Shown here piece by piece: positions 2,928 to 13,357 of a DNA stretch of 16,223 nt (the first letter of the stretch is position 1; the number at the start of each line of letters is the position of its first letter). Source of the stretch: Lachnospiraceae bacterium (GTDB lineage Bacteria; Bacillota; Clostridia; Lachnospirales; Lachnospiraceae); the NCBI GenBank assembly GCA_014804565.1, contig JAAUZN010000079.1, positions 1 through 16,223 on the forward strand, read 5' to 3'. The notes beneath the pieces are model-generated. The model was given only the letters and a program-made list of their open reading frames with translations. It made no database searches and had not been told where the DNA came from. The position numbers and the translations under genes are program-made.

Positions 2928-3617
2928 TTACTTACTCGGCATTGCAATAAATGCCAAAGTTCCCAGAGATGTCATCTCAACTACAACATGATCATCCCTG
3001 ATTTCGGTTACATCAACTTCCAGCCATCGTCCGTTGACGATCTGGAACACTTTAATATTCTGCCCCGTTCTGATGCCTTTCATATAGAAATTCACCTGCG
3101 CGGTTCTGAATCCTGATACAGATGCCTTAACACGCGTAACAGTCAACACACTGCCGCCCAGAGATGCAGCAAATGTCTTGGCAGAACTAACATCTACAGA
3201 CGCTGGCTTTAACAACGTGAATACCTGATTGCTGGGAGCGCCATTGATGATGACATGTCCACCCTGTCCGATCGGTACTGCATTATCAAGTCCCGGAATC
3301 GTTACGAGTGCATTGTTCAAATACTCACCTACAGTCTTTCCTTCCGCCGCCGCAGCTTGTGCTACGGCTGCCGGTACAGAAGATGCCTCGACTGCCGGAG
3401 CAGGTGCGGCATTCTCTTCTCTCGGCTTTTTCTTCGGCTTTGTGTTAGATGCAGTCGAACTCATAGCCCCTTGGTCTTTTTTGTCTTCCTCAGTGCCGTC
3501 GGAACCTTCGTCGACATCCTCTGCCGTCGTCGCCGCTTTCGTCGTTTCTTCCGCCGCCATGACAGGCACGGTAATCAACATGGTTCCTGCCAATACAAGC
3601 GCTAAAAACTTTTTCAT
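2928..3617 (-). CDS. Secreted protein of unknown function in the exopolysaccharide operon
   Basis: I do not recognise a named family. The start is ATG 3617, preceded by AGGAGGG at 6 nt; an in-frame ATG at 3635 would place the ribosome binding site inside the coding region. The 229-residue product has a clear Sec signal peptide (MKKFLALVLAGTMLITVPVM, cleavage likely after VMA near residue 21). Next comes a low-complexity Thr/Asp/Glu/Lys-rich stretch (22-60), a K-P-K-K-K-P-R basic patch and an Ala/Pro-rich linker (to about 90). The C-terminal domain of about 130 residues is beta-rich and glycine-containing (about 95-229, ending F-I-A-M-P-S-K). There is no LPXTG- or NPQTN-like sorting motif, no C-terminal membrane helix and no lipobox. 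It lies directly downstream of the sortase-like gene, so the two may work together at the cell surface, but that is inference from position only. Confidence 0.8.
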   Translation of the reverse strand: MKKFLALVLAGTMLITVPVMAAEETTKAATTAEDVDEGSDGTEEDKKDQGAMSSTASNTKPKKKPREENAAPAPAVEASSVPAAVAQAAAAEGKTVGEYLNNALVTIPGLDNAVPIGQGGHVIINGAPSNQVFTLLKPASVDVSSAKTFAASLGGSVLTVTRVKASVSGFRTAQVNFYMKGIRTGQNIKVFQIVNGRWLEVDVTEIRDDHVVVEMTSLGTLAFIAMPSK

Positions 3618-4477: not shown

Positions 4478-6394
4478 CTACTCCACTTTCTCATAAAACA
4501 CATTCAGAATAAGCTCATATAAAGCATTTTCATCCGGATAAAATTCCTCAAATTCTTCTCCCCTGACAGTTTCGCCCTCCAGAAGATAAAAATCCTCTTC
4601 ATCGAAAGTATAGTCCGATAAAATCGATGCCAGATAAGCAGCTTTATCCAGAGAGATATCTGTAACCATCTGGGGCGATATGGTCCGATACAAATCCAGA
4701 GCCGTGGAAATATGATTTTTTGTCTCCTGCTTCGCGGTCTTGACCAAATTGGTCAAATACTGTTGTTGTCTGACCAGCCGCATATCCGCCGAACCAAAAA
4801 CACTGGTATCCCTGTACCTCACATACACCAGAGCGTTTTCTCCGCTCAGATGCACAGAACTGTCTTTCACAAGATCTGCGTCCGCCTCGGTCAGATCCTC
4901 CAGCACCTTCACATCCACACCCCCTACCGAATCGTTGATCGCAGGAATGGCGCTCATATTGACGGCGGCATAACCATGTATGGGCAGTTGGTAAAACAGC
5001 TTTTCCACCGCCTTCTTCTGATATTCGCAGCTCTTTTCCATCCCGTCGCCGAAGCCGTGCTGCACCGCAATCTGGGCTTCTGAAGTGGCGATATAGGCAC
5101 CTTCGCTGTTATAGAAATCTATATCTGTCATCGTATTGCGATTGATGCCGATAATCTTGATACTCTTATCCTTCGGATTCATCACGGTCAGAAACAGAGC
5201 GTCCGCCTGTCCGCCCTCCGTTCCCTCTTTTACTGCCACCGCGTCGCTGTTCTTGTCAATGCCCATGATGAGCAAGGTACGGATATCCTGATTATATTGG
5301 TAGATGGTATCCTGATATTTCACCCATCCGTTCTGCCATTTGCTCTCCTCCTCTTTCAGCAGTTCGCCTCCGCCTATCACAGGCTGCAGCTGCGGCCTCT
5401 CGCTGTCAGGAGTGCTCGCCAGATGCCTTTTCCCCATCGCCTTGACGGTTTCCAGGCCGCCCAGAAGCAGTCCGCATATGAGCAGGATAATGGCCGCCGC
5501 CGTGAGAAGACGTTTTGCGGACTTTCTGACCGTCTGTCTTACTTTTTCTTTTCTGAGCTGCCTCAGCTCTTTCTTTTCCTGCTCTTTCCTATCCTGTTCT
5601 TCACGCTTTTGGCTTTCATGGAACTCCTTCTGAAGCTCCTGACGCAGTTGCTCTTCTTTCTCCTTCTTTTCTAAGGACTTAGGATCTTCTCCATAATCTC
5701 CATAATATTTCCCGTAATATTTGCCATAATATTTTCCGTAATGCCCGTAATACCCCTTGCCGCTCATGTCCACTTTATTCAGGACAACGCCCAGAATACG
5801 GCTTCCTGTTTTATCCAGCTGGTCCTTCACCTTCTGAACAAATCGGTAGCTGACGGAATTACTTTCCACTACCAACACGGCTCCATCGCAGTTTTTTGCC
5901 ACCACCGCCGCGTCTATCACGCTTCCCAGCGGCGGGGTGTCCACAACGATATAGGCGAAGGGTCTTTTCACCACATTCAACATTTCCGTAAATTTCCTGC
6001 TTCCCAGAAGCTCGCTGGGATTAGGCGGCACAGGACCGGAAAAAAGCACATAAAGTTTGGGGACATCCGTCTCGCAGATCGCATCCATATAGGGCTGCTT
6101 GCCAATCAAGCAGTGGCTCAAGCCGTACTTTACCGCGCCTGTCTTATACCGCCCTATCAATACCGATTTGCGCATATCCGCATCGATTAACAGCGTCACA
6201 TTGCCAGCCTCCGCAAACGACTTGGCCAGTTCCATAGCAACGCTGGATTTCCCTTCATGTGCCATACAGCTTGTGACAGCGATCACTTTGATATCATCAC
6301 CGCAGAATTCTATGTTGCTGCGCAAAGTCTTGAAAGCTTCTTTTATATAAAAATCGCTCTTTTTTTCAAAGAATAGCTTTACGTTCTGCATCAT
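4478..6394 (-). CDS. Fusion of CpsD-type bacterial tyrosine kinase with a LytR-CpsA-Psr (LCP) domain
   Basis: A single uninterrupted 638-residue frame joins two normally separate capsule proteins. Residues 1-210 are a BY-kinase: E-A-F-K-T-L-R-S-N-I activator-contact motif (19-28), Walker A S-C-M-A-H-E-G-K-S-S (42-51), Walker A' L-L-I-D-A-D-M-R (68-75), P-V-P-P-N-P-S-E-L-L (121-130) and Walker B Y-I-V-V-D-T-P-P (148-155). Residues 215-234 are a tyrosine cluster for autophosphorylation. Residues 238-295 are highly charged and predicted coiled coil; 297-314 are a membrane helix. Residues 371-553 are an extracellular LCP domain (L-L-I-M-G-I-D, Q-A-D-A-L, N-R-N-T-M, V-R-Y-R-D-T, D-M-R-L-V-R-Q-Q-Q), the family that transfers polymers from lipid carrier to peptidoglycan. 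The start overlaps the Wzz stop as ATGA, with GAGG 5 nt upstream. This would physically link cytosolic length control to cell-wall attachment. Confidence 0.93.
   Translation of the reverse strand: MMQNVKLFFEKKSDFYIKEAFKTLRSNIEFCGDDIKVIAVTSCMAHEGKSSVAMELAKSFAEAGNVTLLIDADMRKSVLIGRYKTGAVKYGLSHCLIGKQPYMDAICETDVPKLYVLFSGPVPPNPSELLGSRKFTEMLNVVKRPFAYIVVDTPPLGSVIDAAVVAKNCDGAVLVVESNSVSYRFVQKVKDQLDKTGSRILGVVLNKVDMSGKGYYGHYGKYYGKYYGKYYGDYGEDPKSLEKKEKEEQLRQELQKEFHESQKREEQDRKEQEKKELRQLRKEKVRQTVRKSAKRLLTAAAIILLICGLLLGGLETVKAMGKRHLASTPDSERPQLQPVIGGGELLKEEESKWQNGWVKYQDTIYQYNQDIRTLLIMGIDKNSDAVAVKEGTEGGQADALFLTVMNPKDKSIKIIGINRNTMTDIDFYNSEGAYIATSEAQIAVQHGFGDGMEKSCEYQKKAVEKLFYQLPIHGYAAVNMSAIPAINDSVGGVDVKVLEDLTEADADLVKDSSVHLSGENALVYVRYRDTSVFGSADMRLVRQQQYLTNLVKTAKQETKNHISTALDLYRTISPQMVTDISLDKAAYLASILSDYTFDEEDFYLLEGETVRGEEFEEFYPDENALYELILNVFYEKVE
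5690..5752 (-). repeat. Tyrosine-rich KYYG repeat segment of the kinase
   Basis: Residues 215-235 of the kinase-LCP fusion contain ten tyrosines within 20 residues, including three tandem K-Y-Y-G units (221-232). This corresponds to the C-terminal Tyr cluster of CpsD kinases that is autophosphorylated and dephosphorylated by CpsB. Here it is internal, because the LCP module follows it. The encoding DNA is a short imperfect 12-bp tandem repeat, which could change length by slippage. Confidence 0.8.
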
Positions 6395-8054: not shown

Positions 8055-8060
8055 TAATTG

Positions 8061-8372
8061 ATGTATGAGAATTTTCTTCCTGACAGGTTGGCTGAGTTGA
8101 GGATGCAAAAGGGTATTTCTGCGCGTGATATGTCTTTGTCGTTGGGACAGGCAAACAATTATATCAATACGATCGAAAATAAGAAATCGCTGCCGTCCAT
8201 GCAATCATTTTTTTATATTTGTGAGTTTCTTAACATTACCCCGCAGGAATTTTTTGACGAGGGGAATTCTAATCCTCAGAGGCTCAGAGAATTTATAAAT
8301 GAAGCCAAGAAGTTGAACGATAATTCATTGTCACACCTTCTTGGCATTATGAAAGAACTGAACAAAAATTGA
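8061..8372 (+). CDS. XRE/HTH_3-family transcriptional regulator, divergent to the exopolysaccharide operon
   Basis: A 103-residue DNA-binding protein with one Cro/CI-type helix-turn-helix near the N-terminus. From about residue 6, L-P-D-R-L-A-E-L-R-M-Q-K-G-I-S-A-R-D-M-S-L leads into S-L-G-Q-A-N-N-Y-I-N-T-I-E-N-K-K-S-L-P-S, the recognition helix, then F-L-N-I-T-P-Q-E-F-F. The C-terminus (about 70-103) is helical and charged and could mediate dimerisation. The start is uncertain: ATG 8061, or TTG 8058 with AAAGGG 11 nt upstream. Divergent placement next to a consensus promoter and a palindrome suggests it controls the polysaccharide operon, as small HTH regulators do in other Firmicutes matrix operons; this is inference. 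It converges with the sirtuin gene with only 2 bp between stops, so no separate terminator fits. Confidence 0.85.
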   Translation: MYENFLPDRLAELRMQKGISARDMSLSLGQANNYINTIENKKSLPSMQSFFYICEFLNITPQEFFDEGNSNPQRLREFINEAKKLNDNSLSHLLGIMKELNKN

Positions 8373-8374
8373 CT

Positions 8375-9334
8375 TCAAAGCGTCTTCATATCCTCAATAC
8401 TCTTCTTTATATCCGCATTGATACCCACCGCCCTGTCTCCAAGACTTTCCGGCACGATAGCTTCTTTTAAGTTCAGACGAATCAGACTGATATTTTCATG
8501 TTCCCCTGCCAGCTTCTCAAAAGGAAACCTGATGATGGTTGGAGTGTTAAAACCAACCCCCAATTCCAACAATACTATATTTGCCGTCTTATCAGCCAGC
8601 ATTTCCGAGAGAAATTCCCCAAACCGTCTCTCCGCCGCATGCCAGGCATCATCCTCCACGAAATATCTGTCTGTTCGAAGATTCATATTCATGGTGCCGC
8701 CGCATACAGGACATTTCGGCACCAGTTCGGAAGGCACCTTACAATCTTTTCTCTCCAGGTCCATCTGCCGAAACAGTTCCACGCCATCATAGGTTTTCGG
8801 ATGACACCCCTTGGCACACTGGATGTGAAAATAATCTCCCTGTGTGCAGAAGATCTTTTCTTCCGAAAGTCCTGCTTTCTCAAACTGTTTATCCGCATTC
8901 GTGCTCAGTACGAATATCTTTTTCCCCTGCAGCATCTCCAAAAGTGCCCGGTGCAGCGGCGTATGGTCTGCATCTATACCTGCCAAAAGCGCCTGCTTCG
9001 ACCAATATCCCCAGAAAGATTCTTCATCGGGATAGGGATAAAAGCCTGCGGAATACATATCCTGCATATAAGGGCCTCTTCCGTATTTCTTCTGAAATTC
9101 CCCAAAGTTTTCCTCAAAAAAACTGCCGCCGTACTGTGCCCCCGCTGCCGTGGACAGCCCTGCACCCGCCCCTATTAAAATATAGTCGGCATCTTGCAGC
9201 ATGGCAGAAGCACGCTCTATCTGTCGGTCATATGCCTCCTCCTGAAATACATAGTCTTCTGCAGGACTTCCTGATAAAAAATCCTGAAATGTCATTCTGT
9301 TTTTTCCGCTCATCTTTCTTATACCTTCCAACAT
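8375..9334 (-). CDS. Class M sirtuin-like (SirTM) NAD-dependent protein, likely ADP-ribosyltransferase
   Basis: A 319-residue Sir2-fold protein. The NAD-binding loop G-A-G-A-G-L-S-T-A-A-G-A (55-66) is followed by G-G-S-F-F-E-E-N-F instead of the G-I-P-D-F-R deacetylase motif, then D-M-Y-S-A-G-F-Y-P (92-100). The active-site segment reads S-T-N-A-D-K-Q-F-E-K-A-G (144-155), with Asn146 and Asp148, then C-T-Q-G-D-Y (163-168), where Gln165 replaces the catalytic His of deacetylases. A zinc site is supplied by Cys173, Cys177, Cys208 and Cys211. These features match class M sirtuins, known to ADP-ribosylate lipoylated GcvH-L in operons with a macrodomain protein; no macrodomain, GcvH-L or lipoate ligase is in this window. 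It starts 1 bp after the ferredoxin-fusion gene with GAGGG upstream, and is last in the radical SAM peptide operon. Substrate unknown. Confidence 0.87.
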   Translation of the reverse strand: MLEGIRKMSGKNRMTFQDFLSGSPAEDYVFQEEAYDRQIERASAMLQDADYILIGAGAGLSTAAGAQYGGSFFEENFGEFQKKYGRGPYMQDMYSAGFYPYPDEESFWGYWSKQALLAGIDADHTPLHRALLEMLQGKKIFVLSTNADKQFEKAGLSEEKIFCTQGDYFHIQCAKGCHPKTYDGVELFRQMDLERKDCKVPSELVPKCPVCGGTMNMNLRTDRYFVEDDAWHAAERRFGEFLSEMLADKTANIVLLELGVGFNTPTIIRFPFEKLAGEHENISLIRLNLKEAIVPESLGDRAVGINADIKKSIEDMKTL

Positions 9335-9335
9335 G

Positions 9336-9950
9336 TTACCCTCTTTTCCGAACCGCTTTTACAGGACAATTTTCGAAACAACTGCCGCAGTGCAGACAGT
9401 TATTCTGCCTGATCACATAGGGCTTTCCTTCTTCAATACATCTCTGTGGACAATTTTTAGCACAGGCTCCGCATCCGATACATCTGTCAGTTATATCATA
9501 CCCTTTTTCATGGATGATTGCATCTCCCAGCGTATAGCTTTCCCGAAAAATTGGATTGACGCCCAGATTAAAATATTCGATCTCACCTCGATCAATGCAA
9601 AAAATGATTCCTATGCTTCGGGTATCTCCCGGATATACATTCGACAGATAGGGCTGTTCTTCAAATATCTTATCCCGCCACTTGCTCTGCTCCTCCTCCG
9701 GAACGGCATATGCCTTCCCGGACAACCGAATCATCTCTTTATACTTTGTATAACACAGAATCTGTACCCTTCCGTCCGCAAGCAGTTCTGCGCAAAAATT
9801 TTTCCCCCTTGCAGTATAAAAATATAACGCATCCGGTTCATAATGAATCGCGCTGATATTTCTGATCTGCGGTGCCCCTTCACTGTCTACCGTCGCAAAG
9901 GCAAGGACGCCGACTAACTCCATTTTCTTAAGACAAGTCTGTAAATCCAT
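9336..9950 (-). CDS. FMN-binding split-barrel (pyridoxamine-phosphate-oxidase-like) protein fused to 2x[4Fe-4S] ferredoxin
   Basis: A 204-residue two-domain redox protein. The start ATG 9950 is chosen because AGGGAGG precedes it at 8 nt; an in-frame ATG at 9971 would lie inside the preceding gene. Residues 1-140 resemble the PNPOx-like flavin split barrel (V-G-V-L-A-F-A-T-V-D, then Q-I-R-N-I-S-A-I-H-Y and A-L-Y-F-Y-T-A-R-G-K-N). The C-terminus has two ferredoxin motifs: Cys157, 160, 163, 167 (C-I-G-C-G-A-C-A-K-N-C-P) and Cys185, 188, 191, 195 (C-L-H-C-G-S-C-F-E-N-C-P). It could pass electrons from ferredoxin clusters to a flavin, or to the neighbouring radical SAM enzyme or nitroreductase. 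Its presence in a radical SAM operon makes an electron-donor role attractive, but this is inference. It lies 13 bp after the nitroreductase and 1 bp before the sirtuin. Confidence 0.88.
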   Translation of the reverse strand: MDLQTCLKKMELVGVLAFATVDSEGAPQIRNISAIHYEPDALYFYTARGKNFCAELLADGRVQILCYTKYKEMIRLSGKAYAVPEEEQSKWRDKIFEEQPYLSNVYPGDTRSIGIIFCIDRGEIEYFNLGVNPIFRESYTLGDAIIHEKGYDITDRCIGCGACAKNCPQRCIEEGKPYVIRQNNCLHCGSCFENCPVKAVRKRG

Positions 9951-9963
9951 ATGTATTACCTCC

Positions 9964-10539
9964 CTACACAATAACCTTCACTCTGCCCGGCTTTCTTGGC
10001 TTGCTCTGGGGCTGTTCTCCATCAATATAACCCAAAATCACAAAACAGGAGCAGACATAATTCTCCGGGACTTCCCATTCCTCCAAAAGCTTTCTGCCTT
10101 CTTCACCGGCAAATGTCTCCTCTCCTCTGGAGATGATACAGGAAGCGATCCCCAGCTCCGTTGCCTGCAAGACCATGTTCTCTGCGATACAAAAGGCGTC
10201 CGCCACCCGGAACATAAAGTTGCTCTGTCCAAAGATCGCAACCACGGTAGGGGCACCGTAGAATCCGTTTTTTATGGTAGGGTCATCAATACTGCTGGGT
10301 TGCTCTTTTGACACATAAGAACCTTCCAGCCTACTCCTGTCGAATTTAGCCAGATTCATGATGCCGATCCTGGTTGTCAATTCCGCATTATTTACGGCTA
10401 CCATCATACTTCTCTGCCCGCCGCCTGCATTAGGCGCAAAATTGCCGGCCTCCAGTATTTTATCCAAATCCTCTCTACTGACCTGTTGCTTCGTATATTT
10501 TCTGATCGAATGTCTTGCCTTGATAAGATCCATCAACAT
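9964..10539 (-). CDS. Nitroreductase-family FMN oxidoreductase
   Basis: A 191-residue member of the nitroreductase superfamily, homodimeric FMN enzymes that reduce nitro compounds, quinones, enones or flavin-linked substrates. The start ATG 10539 is preceded by AGGAG at about 10 nt and overlaps the radical SAM stop by 7 bp; ATG 10533 is the alternative. FMN phosphate-binding motif R-H-S-I-R-K-Y (9-15) is followed by A-P-N-A-G-G-G-Q, the central V-A-D-A-F-C-I-A-E-N-M-V-L-Q-A-T-E-L-G-I-A-S-C helix-loop and the C-terminal V-I-L-G-Y-I-D-G-E. The basic end (K-P-R-K-P-G-R-V-K-V-I-V) is typical. Length is normal for the family. Co-translation with the radical SAM enzyme suggests it acts on the modified peptide or supplies redox balance; alternatively it is a general electrophile-detoxifying enzyme controlled by the divergent HxlR regulator. 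Confidence 0.92.
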   Translation of the reverse strand: MLMDLIKARHSIRKYTKQQVSREDLDKILEAGNFAPNAGGGQRSMMVAVNNAELTTRIGIMNLAKFDRSRLEGSYVSKEQPSSIDDPTIKNGFYGAPTVVAIFGQSNFMFRVADAFCIAENMVLQATELGIASCIISRGEETFAGEEGRKLLEEWEVPENYVCSCFVILGYIDGEQPQSKPRKPGRVKVIV

Positions 10540-11597
10540 AATAGACTCTCTCCTTTTATCGTATTTTTCTCTTTCCAGCACTGCGGATCCGGCGCATAAA
10601 AATTACCGCCGCTTGTTCCCGCCGCCACAGCAGGACATCCTCTGCACCAGGGCTTCAATTCACATTTACTGCATTTTTTAAACTTTTCATACTCTCTGTA
10701 GCTCTCCATCTGACAGACCCACACGTCTGCCAATCTATCGTGGAATACATTGGAAACCCTACTGTTCTGCACCCGCCTACAGGCGTATATATCACCGTTT
10801 GGAAGAATTGTCATATGACAGTTTCCGCAATTGCAGCCGCCGTATATCATGCCTTCCTCTGCATTGTCCGGGATAGTAAACTCTCCCTTTTCATATTCAT
10901 AGAGCGTCCACAGATGATCCTTTTTATTAAAATAGGTCTCGCAGCCCGCCGCTTCATAAGCCTTAAATTTTGCGTCACATATTTCCAGCAGCTCCCTGTA
11001 TTCCTGCGGCGTCATATTCGTGTCTTTTTCATCGCTGGTGGGACAATATCTTGCAAAGGCAAACACATTCGCCTGATGCGCCACCACGGTATCTATGATA
11101 TCCGGAATCTCTTTTCGGTTTGTCCCGGAAACAGTCGTCATGATAACTGCCTTGATCCCCGCTTTTTTGATGCAGTCTATTTTTTCCAGCGTTATGTCGA
11201 AAGATCCCGGTTTCCGAAACCAGTCATGTGTTTTTTGCATACCGTCAAGGGACAACTGATACTTTTCACATCCCATCACTTTTAACATTCTGCATATTTC
11301 ATCTGTCAGATGAAAAGGATTCCCAAGAATCGTAAAGGGAATTTCTTTGCTTTTCAGTAAGGCAAGCAGCTTCCAGAAATCAGGATGCAGGATCGGATCT
11401 CCTCCTGTAATATAAAAATACGGTAGTCTATGATACATTTTGCAGAAGTCCTCACAATTTGCAACAACCTCCTGCATCTGTTCCCAGTTCATAGACTCTA
11501 TTTCTTTACAATTATTTTCCGAAAAAATATAACAATGTTTGCAGCGTTGGTCACATTCATCTGTAATGTGCCATTGAAATGCAAAATATTCACTCAT
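10533..11597 (-). CDS. Radical SAM/SPASM peptide maturase of the ACGX-type system
   Basis: A 354-residue enzyme (from ATG 11597, which has AGGTG 6 nt upstream; GTG 11606 would add three residues). The radical SAM cluster motif C-D-Q-R-C-K-H-C (Cys15, 19, 22) binds the [4Fe-4S] that cleaves S-adenosylmethionine. I-T-G-G-D-P is the SAM-binding GGE-like motif, and Q-L-S-L-D-G lies in the barrel. The C-terminal SPASM region is Cys-rich: C-N-C-G-N-C, N-G-D-I-Y-A-C-R-R, C-S-K-C-E-L-K-P-W-C-R-G-C and a final D-P-Q-C, holding auxiliary clusters. It follows the Cys-repeat peptide gene, so the peptide is almost certainly its substrate; related enzymes make thioether or other crosslinks from cysteines. 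I recall this type named 'radical SAM/SPASM, ACGX system' but cannot confirm the model. It overlaps the nitroreductase by 7 bp. Confidence 0.93.
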   Translation of the reverse strand: MSEYFAFQWHITDECDQRCKHCYIFSENNCKEIESMNWEQMQEVVANCEDFCKMYHRLPYFYITGGDPILHPDFWKLLALLKSKEIPFTILGNPFHLTDEICRMLKVMGCEKYQLSLDGMQKTHDWFRKPGSFDITLEKIDCIKKAGIKAVIMTTVSGTNRKEIPDIIDTVVAHQANVFAFARYCPTSDEKDTNMTPQEYRELLEICDAKFKAYEAAGCETYFNKKDHLWTLYEYEKGEFTIPDNAEEGMIYGGCNCGNCHMTILPNGDIYACRRVQNSRVSNVFHDRLADVWVCQMESYREYEKFKKCSKCELKPWCRGCPAVAAGTSGGNFYAPDPQCWKEKNTIKGESLLC

Positions 11598-11628
11598 CTG
11601 CTTCACCTGCTTTTTCCATTTTAATATC

Positions 11629-11655
11629 GGCGGCCGTCAGAAACAGACAGCCGCC
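11629..11655 (-). promoter_or_regulatory. Stable hairpin between precursor and maturase genes
   Basis: On the minus strand GGCGGCTGTC pairs with GACGGCCGCC (10 bp, one G-T pair) around a 7-nt loop. No T-run follows (next bases GATATTAAAATGG), so it is not a standard terminator. Placed in the 81-bp gap between the precursor peptide stop and the maturase ATG, it would protect or partly terminate the precursor message, keeping more peptide than enzyme, as in many peptide-maturase operons. Confidence 0.55.
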
Positions 11656-11678
11656 AACTCCTCTGATCAGCCCTCGAC

Positions 11679-11867
11679 CTACTTGTCCGATGCTCCACAC
11701 GCGCTGCCGCATGCTGCGGGCTTCTCTTCCGGCTTGTCGGATGCCCCACACGCACTGCCGCAAGCTGCGGGCTTCTCCTCCGGCTTGTCGGATGCTCCAC
11801 ATGCACTGCCGCATGCAGAACCTACATTTTTGTCCTCGTTCCATCCTGAAATGTTTGAAAGTGCCAT
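11679..11867 (-). CDS. Ribosomally made, Cys-repeat precursor peptide (ACGX-type radical SAM substrate)
   Basis: A 62-residue peptide starting MALSNISGWNEDKNVGS, with an ideal ribosome binding site (AGGAGG, 8 nt from ATG). After the 17-residue leader-like start, three copies of A-C-G-S-A-C-G-A-S-D-K follow, the first two joined to the next by P-E-E-K-P-A, giving a 17-residue period. The six cysteines (19, 23, 36, 40, 53, 57) form three C-x-x-x-C pairs, each Cys flanked by Ala and Gly. There is no double-glycine cleavage site and no hydrophobic core, so it does not resemble a classical bacteriocin. It is first in the operon, followed by the radical SAM/SPASM enzyme. The likely product carries several Cys-based crosslinks or could bind a metal or cluster. 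The name 'ACGX-repeat peptide' is from memory; the mature structure is, to my knowledge, unknown. Confidence 0.9.
   Translation of the reverse strand: MALSNISGWNEDKNVGSACGSACGASDKPEEKPAACGSACGASDKPEEKPAACGSACGASDK
11682..11816 (-). repeat. Tandem 51-bp coding repeat (2.65 copies) in the precursor gene
   Basis: Two full 51-bp units and one of 33 bp plus the junction encode residues 18-62. The copies differ mainly at silent third positions (for example TCC/TCG, GCT/GCC, CAC/CAT), so they are kept under protein-level selection and are not a fresh duplication. Unit number could vary between strains. Confidence 0.85.
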
Positions 11868-11908
11868 GATACTTACCTCCTGTGATAAATTTGTAAGGCT
11901 TTTACCTT

Positions 11909-12056
11909 GTTACAGATTCATCTTAACAGGAGACTCCTCACTGCGTAAGTACGCACAATAAAGTGCCCTGGTAACCCTCTGGTGGTTTAGTTACCTTTTG
12001 GTAACCCCTATCTTTTCTCATAAAGGTATGTTACACTATATTTGTAATGTTACACT
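11909..12056. promoter_or_regulatory. Divergent control region with repeated GTTAC/GTAAC operator-like motifs
   Basis: The 215-bp gap between the precursor peptide (minus) and the HxlR regulator (plus) holds six GTTAC/GTAAC motifs: 11909-11913, 11970-11976, 11990-11995, 12000-12006, 12028-12037 and 12047-12056. GTTACCTTTTGGTAAC (11990-12005) is a perfect inverted repeat. ATGTTACACT occurs twice, 19 bp apart. TGTAA-TG-TTACA (12043-12054) is another dyad. A separate dyad TGCGTA-AG-TACGCA lies at 11942-11955 and AGGAGACTCCT at 11928-11938. No convincing -35/-10 pair was identified on either strand. The motifs are good candidates for HxlR binding. Confidence 0.55.
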
Positions 12057-12082
12057 CAATTTGAAACTATTGGAGGTTTATC

Positions 12083-12412
12083 ATGCTTTCAAAGGAAAAT
12101 CTGCCCGCCTGCCCGGTGGCGACCACAGTACAACTGATCGGCAGCAAATGGAAGCTGCTCATTTTAAGAAATTTACTTGTAAGGCCCTGGAGATTCAATG
12201 AGTTAAAAAAGAATCTCGAAGGAATCAGTCAGAAAGTCCTGACCGATTCCCTTCGGGCATTAGAAGAGGATGGCATTGTAACCCGCACCGTATACCCGGA
12301 GGTGCCTCCCCATGTGGAATATGCGCTGAGTGAACTGGGAGAATCTATGCGTCCCATTTTAAAGGCCATGGAAGAATGGGGTGTGGCTTATCAAAAATCT
12401 TTCTTTCATTAA
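12083..12412 (+). CDS. HxlR-family winged-helix transcriptional regulator
   Basis: A 109-residue dimeric winged-helix regulator of the HxlR/DUF24 family. It shows the diagnostic N-terminal C-P-V (Cys10), then L-I-G-S-K-W-K-L-L-I-L-R-N-L (18-31), R-P-W-R-F-N-E-L, I-S-Q-K-V-L-T-D-S-L-R-A-L-E-E-D-G-I-V-T-R (recognition helix and wing) and P-P-H-V-E-Y-A-L-S-E-L-G. The conserved N-terminal Cys is the redox/electrophile sensor in characterised members (YodB, CatR, HypR), some of which control nitroreductase genes. That fits the nitroreductase in the divergent operon. GGAGG lies 6 nt before the ATG. Regulation of both directions from the shared GTTAC-rich intergenic region is inferred. The next gene follows after 12 bp. 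Confidence 0.93.
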   Translation: MLSKENLPACPVATTVQLIGSKWKLLILRNLLVRPWRFNELKKNLEGISQKVLTDSLRALEEDGIVTRTVYPEVPPHVEYALSELGESMRPILKAMEEWGVAYQKSFFH

Positions 12413-12424
12413 AGGTGTGTAAAA

Positions 12425-13357
12425 ATGATATTGAATACAGGCAATCGGACAGATATCCCAGCCTTTTACAGCGACTGGTTTTACAACCGCGTCAAGGAGG
12501 GCTATGCCCTTGTCCGCAATCCCTATTATCCGACACAGATCACCAAATATCTTCTAAAACCGGAGGTCATAGACATTCTGGTTTTCTGTACCAAAAATCC
12601 TATCCCTATGCTGGACAGGCTGTCTCTGTTGTCGGCATTTGATATGTTCTGGTTTGTGACGATCACGCCCTACGGGAAAGAGATCGAACCTCTTGTTCCT
12701 CCCAAGGAACAGGTGATCTCTTCTTTTCAGCAGCTTTCTGCGCTGGTTGGGAGCGACCGCATGAGCTGGCGGTACGATCCCATTTTTATCACAGAGCAAT
12801 ATTCCGTTTCTTATCACATCGAACAATTTCACCAGATGGCGGAGATGCTTTCCGGCTGTACGGACCAGTGCGTGGTAAGCTTTATTGACCTATACGAAAA
12901 GACAAAACGAAATTTTCATGGCATCCGCAGCGTCACAGACAGCGACCAGGAAACGCTGATCGCTGCATTCTCAGAGATTGCAAAAAGGAACCATCTGCAA
13001 ATACACTTATGCTGTGAGAATGCCAACCTTGTCCGGGAAAATGTGGACGCGGACGGCTGTATGACAAAAGCGGTACTAGAAAAGGCATTAGGCTGTCGGT
13101 TGGATGTCCCCCAAAAGAAAACGGCGCGGCAGGAATGTGCCTGCCTGTTAGGGGCAGATATCGGCGCCTACAACACCTGCCCTCATGGCTGCCTGTATTG
13201 TTATGCGAACTATGACCAAGAGACGGTTAAGAGAAACCAAAAGCTGCATCACGCTTCCTCTCCTCTGTTGATCGGCGAGGTGACTGCCGATGATGTGATC
13301 AAACAGGCCGAGCAAAAATCCTGGAAAAACGGACAGATGACAATTTTTGATTTATAA
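12425..13357 (+). CDS. DUF1848 family protein with Cys-rich C-terminus, function unknown
   Basis: A 310-residue protein I assign to the DUF1848 family from its start (M-I-L-N-T-G-N-R-T-D-I-P-A-F-Y-S-D-W-F), the F-C-T-K-N-P-I-P-M segment (54-62), F-W-F-V-T-I-T-P-Y-G (75-84), W-R-Y-D-P-I (115-120) and the C-terminal C-P-H-G-C-L-Y-C-Y-A-N (252-262). The C-x-x-x-C-x-x-C pattern (Cys252, 256, 259) resembles a radical SAM cluster motif but lies at the wrong end of the protein, and C-A-C (238-240) precedes it. An iron-sulfur cluster is likely; the reaction is unknown. It follows the HxlR gene by 12 bp with AAGGTG before its ATG, so the two form an operon divergent from the peptide cluster. It converges on the esterase gene with a 13-bp gap. 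Confidence 0.85.
   Translation: MILNTGNRTDIPAFYSDWFYNRVKEGYALVRNPYYPTQITKYLLKPEVIDILVFCTKNPIPMLDRLSLLSAFDMFWFVTITPYGKEIEPLVPPKEQVISSFQQLSALVGSDRMSWRYDPIFITEQYSVSYHIEQFHQMAEMLSGCTDQCVVSFIDLYEKTKRNFHGIRSVTDSDQETLIAAFSEIAKRNHLQIHLCCENANLVRENVDADGCMTKAVLEKALGCRLDVPQKKTARQECACLLGADIGAYNTCPHGCLYCYANYDQETVKRNQKLHHASSPLLIGEVTADDVIKQAEQKSWKNGQMTIFDL

Follow-up and report, generated by a model that had tools for sequence, protein, structure and literature searches.

The ACGX operon of a gut Lachnospiraceae bacterium (assembly GCA_014804565.1) lies in the 16,223 nucleotides of contig JAAUZN010000079.1 that were analysed here, referred to below as the window. It encodes a cysteine-repeat peptide (AcgA), its radical SAM/SPASM maturase (AcgM), a nitroreductase-family flavoenzyme, a fusion of a PNPOx-like domain with a ferredoxin (PNPOx-ferredoxin) and a class M-type sirtuin (SirTM). 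The five genes were singled out in an initial annotation made from the DNA letters, and this observation is sound and understated, as they are part of a recurrent set which brings together an HxlR-type regulator, a Cys peptide and its maturase, and a writer and an eraser of ADP-ribosylation; the divergent HxlR gene with its common promoter and the zinc macrodomain partner had been overlooked. Gene identities, catalytic motifs, recurrence, the common regulator with its promoter box and natural fusions of the peptide are established in the sections that follow. We tentatively propose that the operon is an intracellular thiol/electrophile-stress module, in which a redox centre borne by the peptide has flavoproteins as its partners and reversible ADP-ribosylation as its switch. 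The gene set points to a new kind of peptide-based redox switch.

Recurrence of the gene set

All five open reading frames (ORFs) are on the minus strand, spanning 8375-11867, with intergenic spacings of 81, -7, 13 and 1 bp that rest on taking the ATG codons at 11597, 10539 and 9950 as the starts of the maturase, nitroreductase and PNPOx-ferredoxin genes. ORFs, profile scores and the PDB match confirm the families, strand, span and spacings first given. Peptide and maturase, the pair separated by 81 bp, both score above the cut-offs of TIGR04341 and TIGR04340. A transcript end between maturase and nitroreductase, named in the initial annotation as a finding that would speak against a single operon, has no sign in the sequence, since the two genes overlap by 7 bp and the one terminator-like match in the operon, on the minus strand, is inside the nitroreductase gene. 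Scans for promoters and for consensus terminators performed no better than on shuffled sequences (terminator sites 4 versus 3.7).

The maturase was found in 31 of 250 genomes of the same family, in an even draw that includes the source genome, and 80 further loci, the best 80 of 577 confirmed in a public genome collection, were added, which favours close relatives of the window maturase. Removing redundancy at 97% maturase identity left 107 of the resulting 112 loci (window included), and the main counts refer to the 81 that extend 5.5 kb or more on the downstream side, SirTM being sought up to 6.5 kb downstream or 3.5 kb upstream. Genes were taken as mechanical ORFs with profile matches preferred and unlabelled ORFs below 100 amino acids left out; neighbours were clustered by BLAST, generic cluster names are our reading of the sequences, and distant partners were missed because the profiles were built from the first 31 loci and the window.

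A nitroreductase or MDR-family reductase is present at 63 of the 81 loci, PNPOx-ferredoxin at 48, SirTM at 49, the zinc macrodomain at 40, and SirTM together with the macrodomain at 39, so that the co-occurrence search first suggested does recover the set. Peptide-maturase pairs that consistently lack the downstream genes, the other finding expected to refute the initial annotation, were not encountered: just 3 of the 81 loci are without any of reductase, PNPOx-ferredoxin, SirTM and macrodomain. An ACGX frame occurs in 90 of the 96 loci whose upstream flank is 1.5 kb or longer, and in the less biased family sample SirTM accompanies 16 of the 31 non-window loci at any flank length. Because the same partner genes return in independent genomes, the arrangement is not a product of chance. 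Across the 107 loci, with any flank, the neighbour clusters are HxlR (88), ACGX (87), nitroreductase (59), PNPOx-ferredoxin (59), SirTM (58), macrodomain (42), MDR quinone-reductase-like (24), ABC ATPase (12) and, with 9 each, MerR-like, sensor-like and DUF1848. The nitroreductase and the MDR quinone-reductase-like gene largely replace one another; where 1.2 kb or more of downstream sequence was available (97 loci), 56 loci have only the former, 21 only the latter, 2 both and 18 neither.

In Roseburia sp. 831b, a complete plasmid record shows the order acgA-acgM-nitroreductase-4Fe4S-macrodomain-Sir2-DUF1848 behind a divergent helix-turn-helix gene, and its annotation already uses the names acgA and acgM. 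Within the Creative Commons-licensed papers of PubMed Central (subscription papers and preprints lie outside this search), no description of the five-gene combination was found, nor any mention of the TIGR04340/TIGR04341 pair, the ACGX system or its function, of ribosomally synthesised and post-translationally modified peptides (RiPPs) combined with ADP-ribosylation and radical SAM, of radical SAM together with a macrodomain, a sirtuin and a peptide, or of an operon with sirtuin, macrodomain and nitroreductase; papers containing the strings ACGX or 'acgM' are, among the matches listed, unrelated by title. The earlier statement that the five-gene set is undescribed therefore holds for the papers searched, with the reservation that peptide and maturase already exist as a named pair, as do SirTM/macrodomain pairs; it is the combination of both that was not found there.

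Table 1. Features of the ACGX operon and its control region (window coordinates)
Feature	Position	Strand	Evidence
acgA, ACGX-repeat peptide, 62 amino acids	11679..11867	-	TIGR04341 68.6 bits, cut-off 28
acgM, radical SAM/SPASM maturase, 354 amino acids from ATG	10533..11597	-	TIGR04340 599.5 bits, cut-off 400
Nitroreductase-family flavoenzyme	9964..10539	-	PF00881 84.7 bits; best PDB match 3ek3
PNPOx-like (FMN split-barrel) domain fused to two-cluster [4Fe-4S] ferredoxin	9336..9950	-	PNPOx_N and two Fer4 stretches
Class M-type sirtuin (SirTM), 319 amino acids	8375..9334	-	5a3a E 1.7e-46; 8rsn E 2.2e-27
HxlR/DUF24-type regulator, divergent	12083..12412	+	PF01638 111.9 bits
Divergent promoter region common to the HxlR gene and acgA	11868..12082		
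GTGCGTACTT box, likely regulator site or promoter element	11947..11956	-	window copy of GTGCGTAC

The ACGX peptide and its maturase

AcgA of the window opens with MALSNISGW, which is followed by three ACGSACGASDK units, giving six Cys. Relatives number 2329 at E<=0.01, and the 120 listed carry the precomputed PF27855. The sequence around the Cys is close to invariant: in 95 peptides with 598 Cys, Ala precedes 574 and Gly follows 594. A further Cys stands at +4 for 251 of them, and the other 347, the unit-final Cys, have Asp at +4 in 301 cases and Glu in 8, in agreement with the C-X3-D/E motif of ranthipeptides, which PMC9413430 describes as the motif cross-linked by PapB. The number of Cys per peptide runs from two to thirteen, and a frame with a single ACG unit is present at one locus (L133).

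In three protein clusters (P0001-P0003), found among the 120 matches listed of 2687 relatives, an ACGX tail is joined to a PF01613 flavin reductase. The ACGX part is C-terminal to the enzyme and is accompanied by a leader-like segment, SLNKLADW or GLSQLAGW. The clusters include one protein from Anaeromicropila herbilytica and that of locus L051, where the fusion gene is immediately upstream of acgM and is the sole TIGR04341 match of the genome. Because of this fusion, the flavoprotein partners, the scarcity of transporter clusters and the absence of protease clusters (none reaches 4 of the 107 loci, unlabelled ORFs below 100 amino acids excluded), an intracellular carrier or tail is favoured over a secreted product for AcgA.

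AcgM possesses the CxxxCxxC motif and conserved C-terminal (SPASM) cysteines (alignment A1). Its predicted structure, with a predicted local distance difference test score (pLDDT) of 89.4, has SuiB, SkfB and anSME as nearest folds, and a fold search with this model returned nothing beyond general SPASM relatives. The next named subfamily after TIGR04340 is SbtM (TIGR04082), at 177.8 bits under a cut-off of 350, presumably with the thio(seleno)oxazole role that its model name indicates. Since AcgM is not a PapB, scoring 66.5 bits on the PapB model NF047865 where the cut-off is 340, a Cys-to-Asp thioether at C-X3-D is offered as a guess at its product, by analogy.

A phage origin was considered and rejected, the maturase having no match in the phage collection at E<=1e-20. 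Four plasmid records match the maturase, and among them are two versions of a single Methanosphaera plasmid. The archaeal plasmid of Methanosphaera sp. ISO3-F5 (L278, 4440-8024) encodes a variant ACGX peptide with C-G-X-E units and a maturase whose annotation splits it into two frames, together with a zinc-binding dehydrogenase, a helix-turn-helix protein and a PNPOx-ferredoxin protein; BREX genes are located some 4 kb from this locus.

Regulator, promoter box and redox partners

The HxlR gene is divergent and upstream in 74 of the 96 loci that have an upstream flank of 1.5 kb or more, and one N-terminal Cys, Cys10 in the window, is invariant in all 88 HxlR proteins of ACGX loci. YodB, CatR and HypR are described as sensing quinones, diamide and hypochlorous acid via an N-terminal Cys, and the induced genes include the nitroreductase YodC (PMC6943732). 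On the RrpB model the window protein scores 118.3 bits, below the cut-off of 175.

The box GTGCGTAC occurs 112 times in 1.70 Mb, against about 52 expected under uniform composition, and 99 of these occurrences fall in the stretch from 900 bp ahead of the called acgM ORF to 100 bp into it, which gives a box in this position at 90 of the 107 loci. In the 3.1 Mb window genome GTGCGTACTT is found twice and the reversed control pattern once. The idea of a common genome-wide site was dropped on this low number; the second copy has no labelled gene in the 3 kb inspected. The box is also near the start of some SirTM operons that lack acgM or are unlinked from it (L223, L238, L250, L287, L288), and was not found at others of this kind (e.g. 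L216, L217, L219, L283, L284).

The ferredoxin part of the PNPOx-ferredoxin protein has eight invariant Cys (alignment A3), and the predicted structure (pLDDT 92.8) is nearest in fold to 2hhz and 2ig6.

The class M-type sirtuin and the zinc macrodomain

The window sirtuin displays QG (Q165-G166) instead of the catalytic HG motif and scores just below the Pfam SIR2 cut-off (21 versus 24). Q165, G166, N146 and R220 are invariant in alignment A2, and QG is kept in 59 of the 60 SirTM sequences aligned from ACGX loci; the one without it is a diverged paralogue in L056. N146, Q165 and R220 align with N128, Q147 and R202 (chain numbering, constant offset 10) of 5a3a, which we take to be SpySirTM. In SpySirTM, mutation of Asn118, Gln137 or Arg192 strongly lowers activity (PMC4518038). 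By its sequence the window sirtuin is of the ADP-ribosylating type and class M-type, a label worded in this way because the zinc macrodomain gene alongside, after which the class is named, is unlinked in the window genome. Both the redox supply and the ADP-ribosylating type of sirtuin that had been proposed initially are supported.

Linkage varies among relatives: the nearest (L076) has no macrodomain within 10 kb, in L082 it is adjacent and in L077 it follows three genes on. The window genome retains an unlinked macrodomain with the zinc motifs on contig C26 (L073, 1162-2004, plus strand), and so has genes of both the writer and the eraser type. The neighbour of about 260 amino acids on the SirTM side in relatives is this macrodomain (PF01661 for the L040 copy), and the best matches of the family profile among solved chains are 8rsi, 5kiv, 8rsl and 8rsm. 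PMC11490716 describes the zinc macrodomain, with motifs Cx4HxC, Dx3H and NAAN, as the eraser of the ADP-ribose mark of class M sirtuins; of the 45 macrodomain rows from ACGX loci, 43 show Cx4HxCxDx3H and the remaining two are fragments of 72 and 110 amino acids. In the system described in PMC4518038 and PMC11490716, SirTM modifies lipoylated GcvH-L, the macrodomain reverses the modification and two oxidoreductases accompany them, and the authors suggest that the GcvH-L carrier scavenges oxidants. Neither GcvH-L nor LplA2 was found among the scanned window ORFs, so the window does not hold this extended operon; the whole genome gave one weak partial GCV_H match (25.9 bits), and LplA2 was searched in the window only.

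A number of further sirtuin and macrodomain arrangements were observed. On the opposite strand near the C26 macrodomain are a rubrerythrin-like (2356-2931) and a Fur/PerR-type regulator-like (2946-3344) frame, names that are our reading of translations which contain N-derived X letters. Contig C88 (L075, 1459-2274, minus strand) encodes a second, diverged sirtuin-like protein, 30% identical to that of the window and with CG, judged by eye, at the QG position. A distant second SirTM branch forms tandem pairs or triplets in Lachnospiraceae (L056, 4535-6332; L251-L253) with no macrodomain label directly alongside, and a bacterial ACGX locus (L069, 1936-3477, minus strand) contains a macrodomain-SirTM fusion frame of 513 amino acids that resembles fungal Mfs1 fusions.

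A proposed mechanism and its rivals

In the stress module that we propose, the HxlR protein, as repressor or activator, would sense thiol oxidation via Cys10 and control the GTGCGTAC promoter, and AcgM would modify the Cys repeats of AcgA, possibly to Cys-to-Asp thioethers at C-X3-D. AcgA would stay in the cell as a carrier of sulfur-based redox or nucleophile chemistry; the nitroreductase and the PNPOx-ferredoxin protein would serve it, a role for flavoenzymes which the natural flavin-reductase-ACGX fusions support. SirTM might then add, and the zinc macrodomain remove, ADP-ribose on an operon member, either AcgA or PNPOx-ferredoxin, switching it off and on; the model for this is lipoylated GcvH-L in another SirTM operon type, with AcgA or PNPOx-ferredoxin in the place of the carrier. 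The more specific claim, that a radical-SAM-made peptide is an enzyme-attachable intracellular redox carrier and the direct substrate of SirTM, with SirTM as writer and the zinc macrodomain as eraser, is rather doubtful.

SirTM is enriched in genomes that have acgM. In the family sample it is present in 27 of 31 such genomes and in 104 of 219 that lack acgM (p 1.8e-5); for the class sample the figures are 15 of 17 and 45 of 324 (p 1e-10). These counts, tallied by hand, use E<=1e-25 for SirTM and include a diverged branch. Location in an ACGX locus, mapped onto the SirTM tree, takes 18 parsimony changes, of which at least 8 are forced, so the association was made or lost repeatedly; it is also more clustered than chance (shuffled mean 32.6, with 0 of 500 shuffles as low).

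A number of observations weigh against the proposal. The reaction and product of AcgM are inferred, and the Methanosphaera peptide has mostly C-X2-E in place of C-X3-D. Reductase, PNPOx-ferredoxin and SirTM are all together in only 28 of the 81 loci, and 32 have no nearby SirTM. Transporter-like clusters do exist (ABC ATPase at 12 and MATE-like at 6 of the 107 loci, on both strands), and in the window genome the macrodomain is unlinked. About half of the family genomes without acgM, the 104 of 219, nevertheless have SirTM, and a dependence of SirTM on ACGX is thereby ruled out. At 38 SirTM loci without acgM (hand-picked from the score list; 39 were fetched and L224 was dropped for an acgM fragment at its edge) a macrodomain is present at 30, HxlR at 14 and PNPOx-ferredoxin at only 7, so the target of the sirtuin need not be the peptide. 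Within the 81 ACGX loci SirTM is associated with PNPOx-ferredoxin (both 38, PNPOx-ferredoxin only 10, SirTM only 11, neither 22; p 4e-5) and more weakly with the nitroreductase (34/14/15/18, p 0.02). From these acgM-less loci and this co-occurrence it follows that PNPOx-ferredoxin and the peptide are equally good candidates for the target. The SirTMs of ACGX loci are also not one clade: at least 8 of the 18 changes are forced, in a tree with unsettled bootstrap, a long-branch warning and a midpoint root for drawing only. A single origin finds no support in this tree, where the window SirTM is on a different branch from most SirTMs of ACGX loci. Of the initial suggestion of an ADP-ribosylating enzyme acting on the peptide or a partner, the enzyme type stands and action on the peptide is not established.

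It is quite possible, then, that two stress modules with separate substrates share one promoter and that the peptide is never ADP-ribosylated; the ACGX peptide, its maturase and the reductase would act against electrophiles, and PNPOx-ferredoxin, macrodomain and SirTM would regulate something else, perhaps PNPOx-ferredoxin itself. The association of PNPOx-ferredoxin with SirTM in ACGX loci, its presence at 7 of the 38 acgM-less SirTM loci and the far greater frequency of SirTM than acgM (131 versus 31 of 250 genomes) all agree with this division, but it leaves the enrichment of SirTM in acgM-bearing genomes above background, its place near acgM in 49 of 81 loci and the repeated gains or losses of the ACGX association demanded by the tree to be accounted for. 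A role for AcgA as a metallothionein-like metal trap or thiol sponge within the cell, with Cys adjusted by AcgM for electrophile capture rather than catalysis and with SirTM incidental, seems unlikely: up to thirteen Cys per peptide, the HxlR-type regulator and reductases of the nitroreductase/quinone-reductase kind are what such a protein might be expected to have, yet the near-strict A-C-G and the Asp at +4 are more specific than a sponge requires, a frame with a single ACG unit exists and the fusion is to one enzyme class. Least probable is a secreted, bacteriocin-like RiPP with accessory redox enzymes and a sirtuin for self-protection or peptide modification, which is suggested by the repeat precursor beside a radical SAM/SPASM enzyme, by the RiPP maturases SuiB and SkfB among the nearest folds and by the transporter clusters; against it speak the sparseness of those clusters and their occurrence on both strands, the lack of a protease cluster at 4 or more loci, the C-terminal fusion to flavin reductase and partners that include a redox regulator and a macrodomain. 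On the transporter, protease and fusion evidence, of the 'natural product or peptide cofactor' first put forward, the cofactor fits better and the natural product less well.

The stress module with a switchable peptide carrier, if true, would make modified peptides switchable redox cofactors inside anaerobes instead of secreted products. The peptide as a SirTM-switched carrier would provide class M sirtuins with a second carrier class after lipoyl-GcvH-L and give an example of a sirtuin-controlled RiPP. The operon connects the two families: SirTM gains a short list of candidate substrates encoded next to it, and the peptide gains a regulator, partner redox enzymes and a likely cellular location.

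Neighbouring genes

A small HTH_3/HTH_19 gene (8058-8372, plus strand) converges on the sirtuin gene and ends 2 bp before it. On the other side, 12 bp behind the HxlR gene, is a DUF1848 gene (12425-13357, plus strand) whose product has a C-terminal CPHGCLYCY (radical-SAM-like) motif; a DUF1848 cluster is present in 9 of the 107 ACGX loci, in Roseburia sp. 831b a DUF1848 gene comes after that for Sir2, and the protein is possibly a further partner of the operon. Further away, a gene at 4478-6394 (minus strand) combines a ParA/MinD-type P-loop domain and a LytR-CpsA-Psr domain in one protein, inside a capsule/exopolysaccharide locus (CpsB/CapC, Wzz, sugar transferase).

Comparison with known systems

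Among the closest known systems is the ACGX system as defined by TIGR04340 (AcgM) and TIGR04341 (AcgA), whose curated cut-offs both window proteins pass; the two models span the pair only, however, and HxlR, the reductase, PNPOx-ferredoxin, macrodomain and SirTM fall outside them. The ranthipeptide system PapA/PapB, as PMC9413430 describes it for freyrasin, similarly has repeated C-X3-D motifs beside a radical SAM/SPASM enzyme, but AcgM is far below the PapB cut-off, the peptide has the ACGX motif and the gene context is another. The DUF24/HxlR regulons YodB/YodC and HypR/HypO share with the ACGX operon an HxlR protein with N-terminal Cys beside a nitroreductase-family enzyme, according to PMC6943732, and to this the ACGX operon adds a Cys peptide, a maturase and genes of ADP-ribosylation type. 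With the extended SirTM/Zn-Macro operon carrying GcvH-L and LplA2, as set out in PMC4518038 and PMC11490716, it has in common the QG sirtuin, a macrodomain (linked in relatives) that bears Cx4HxC, Dx3H and NAAN, accompanying oxidoreductases and a redox-stress setting; unlike that operon, it has a nitroreductase or MDR enzyme instead of OYE/LLM, a macrodomain that is unlinked in the window genome, and a Cys peptide with its radical SAM maturase where the other has the lipoylated carrier.

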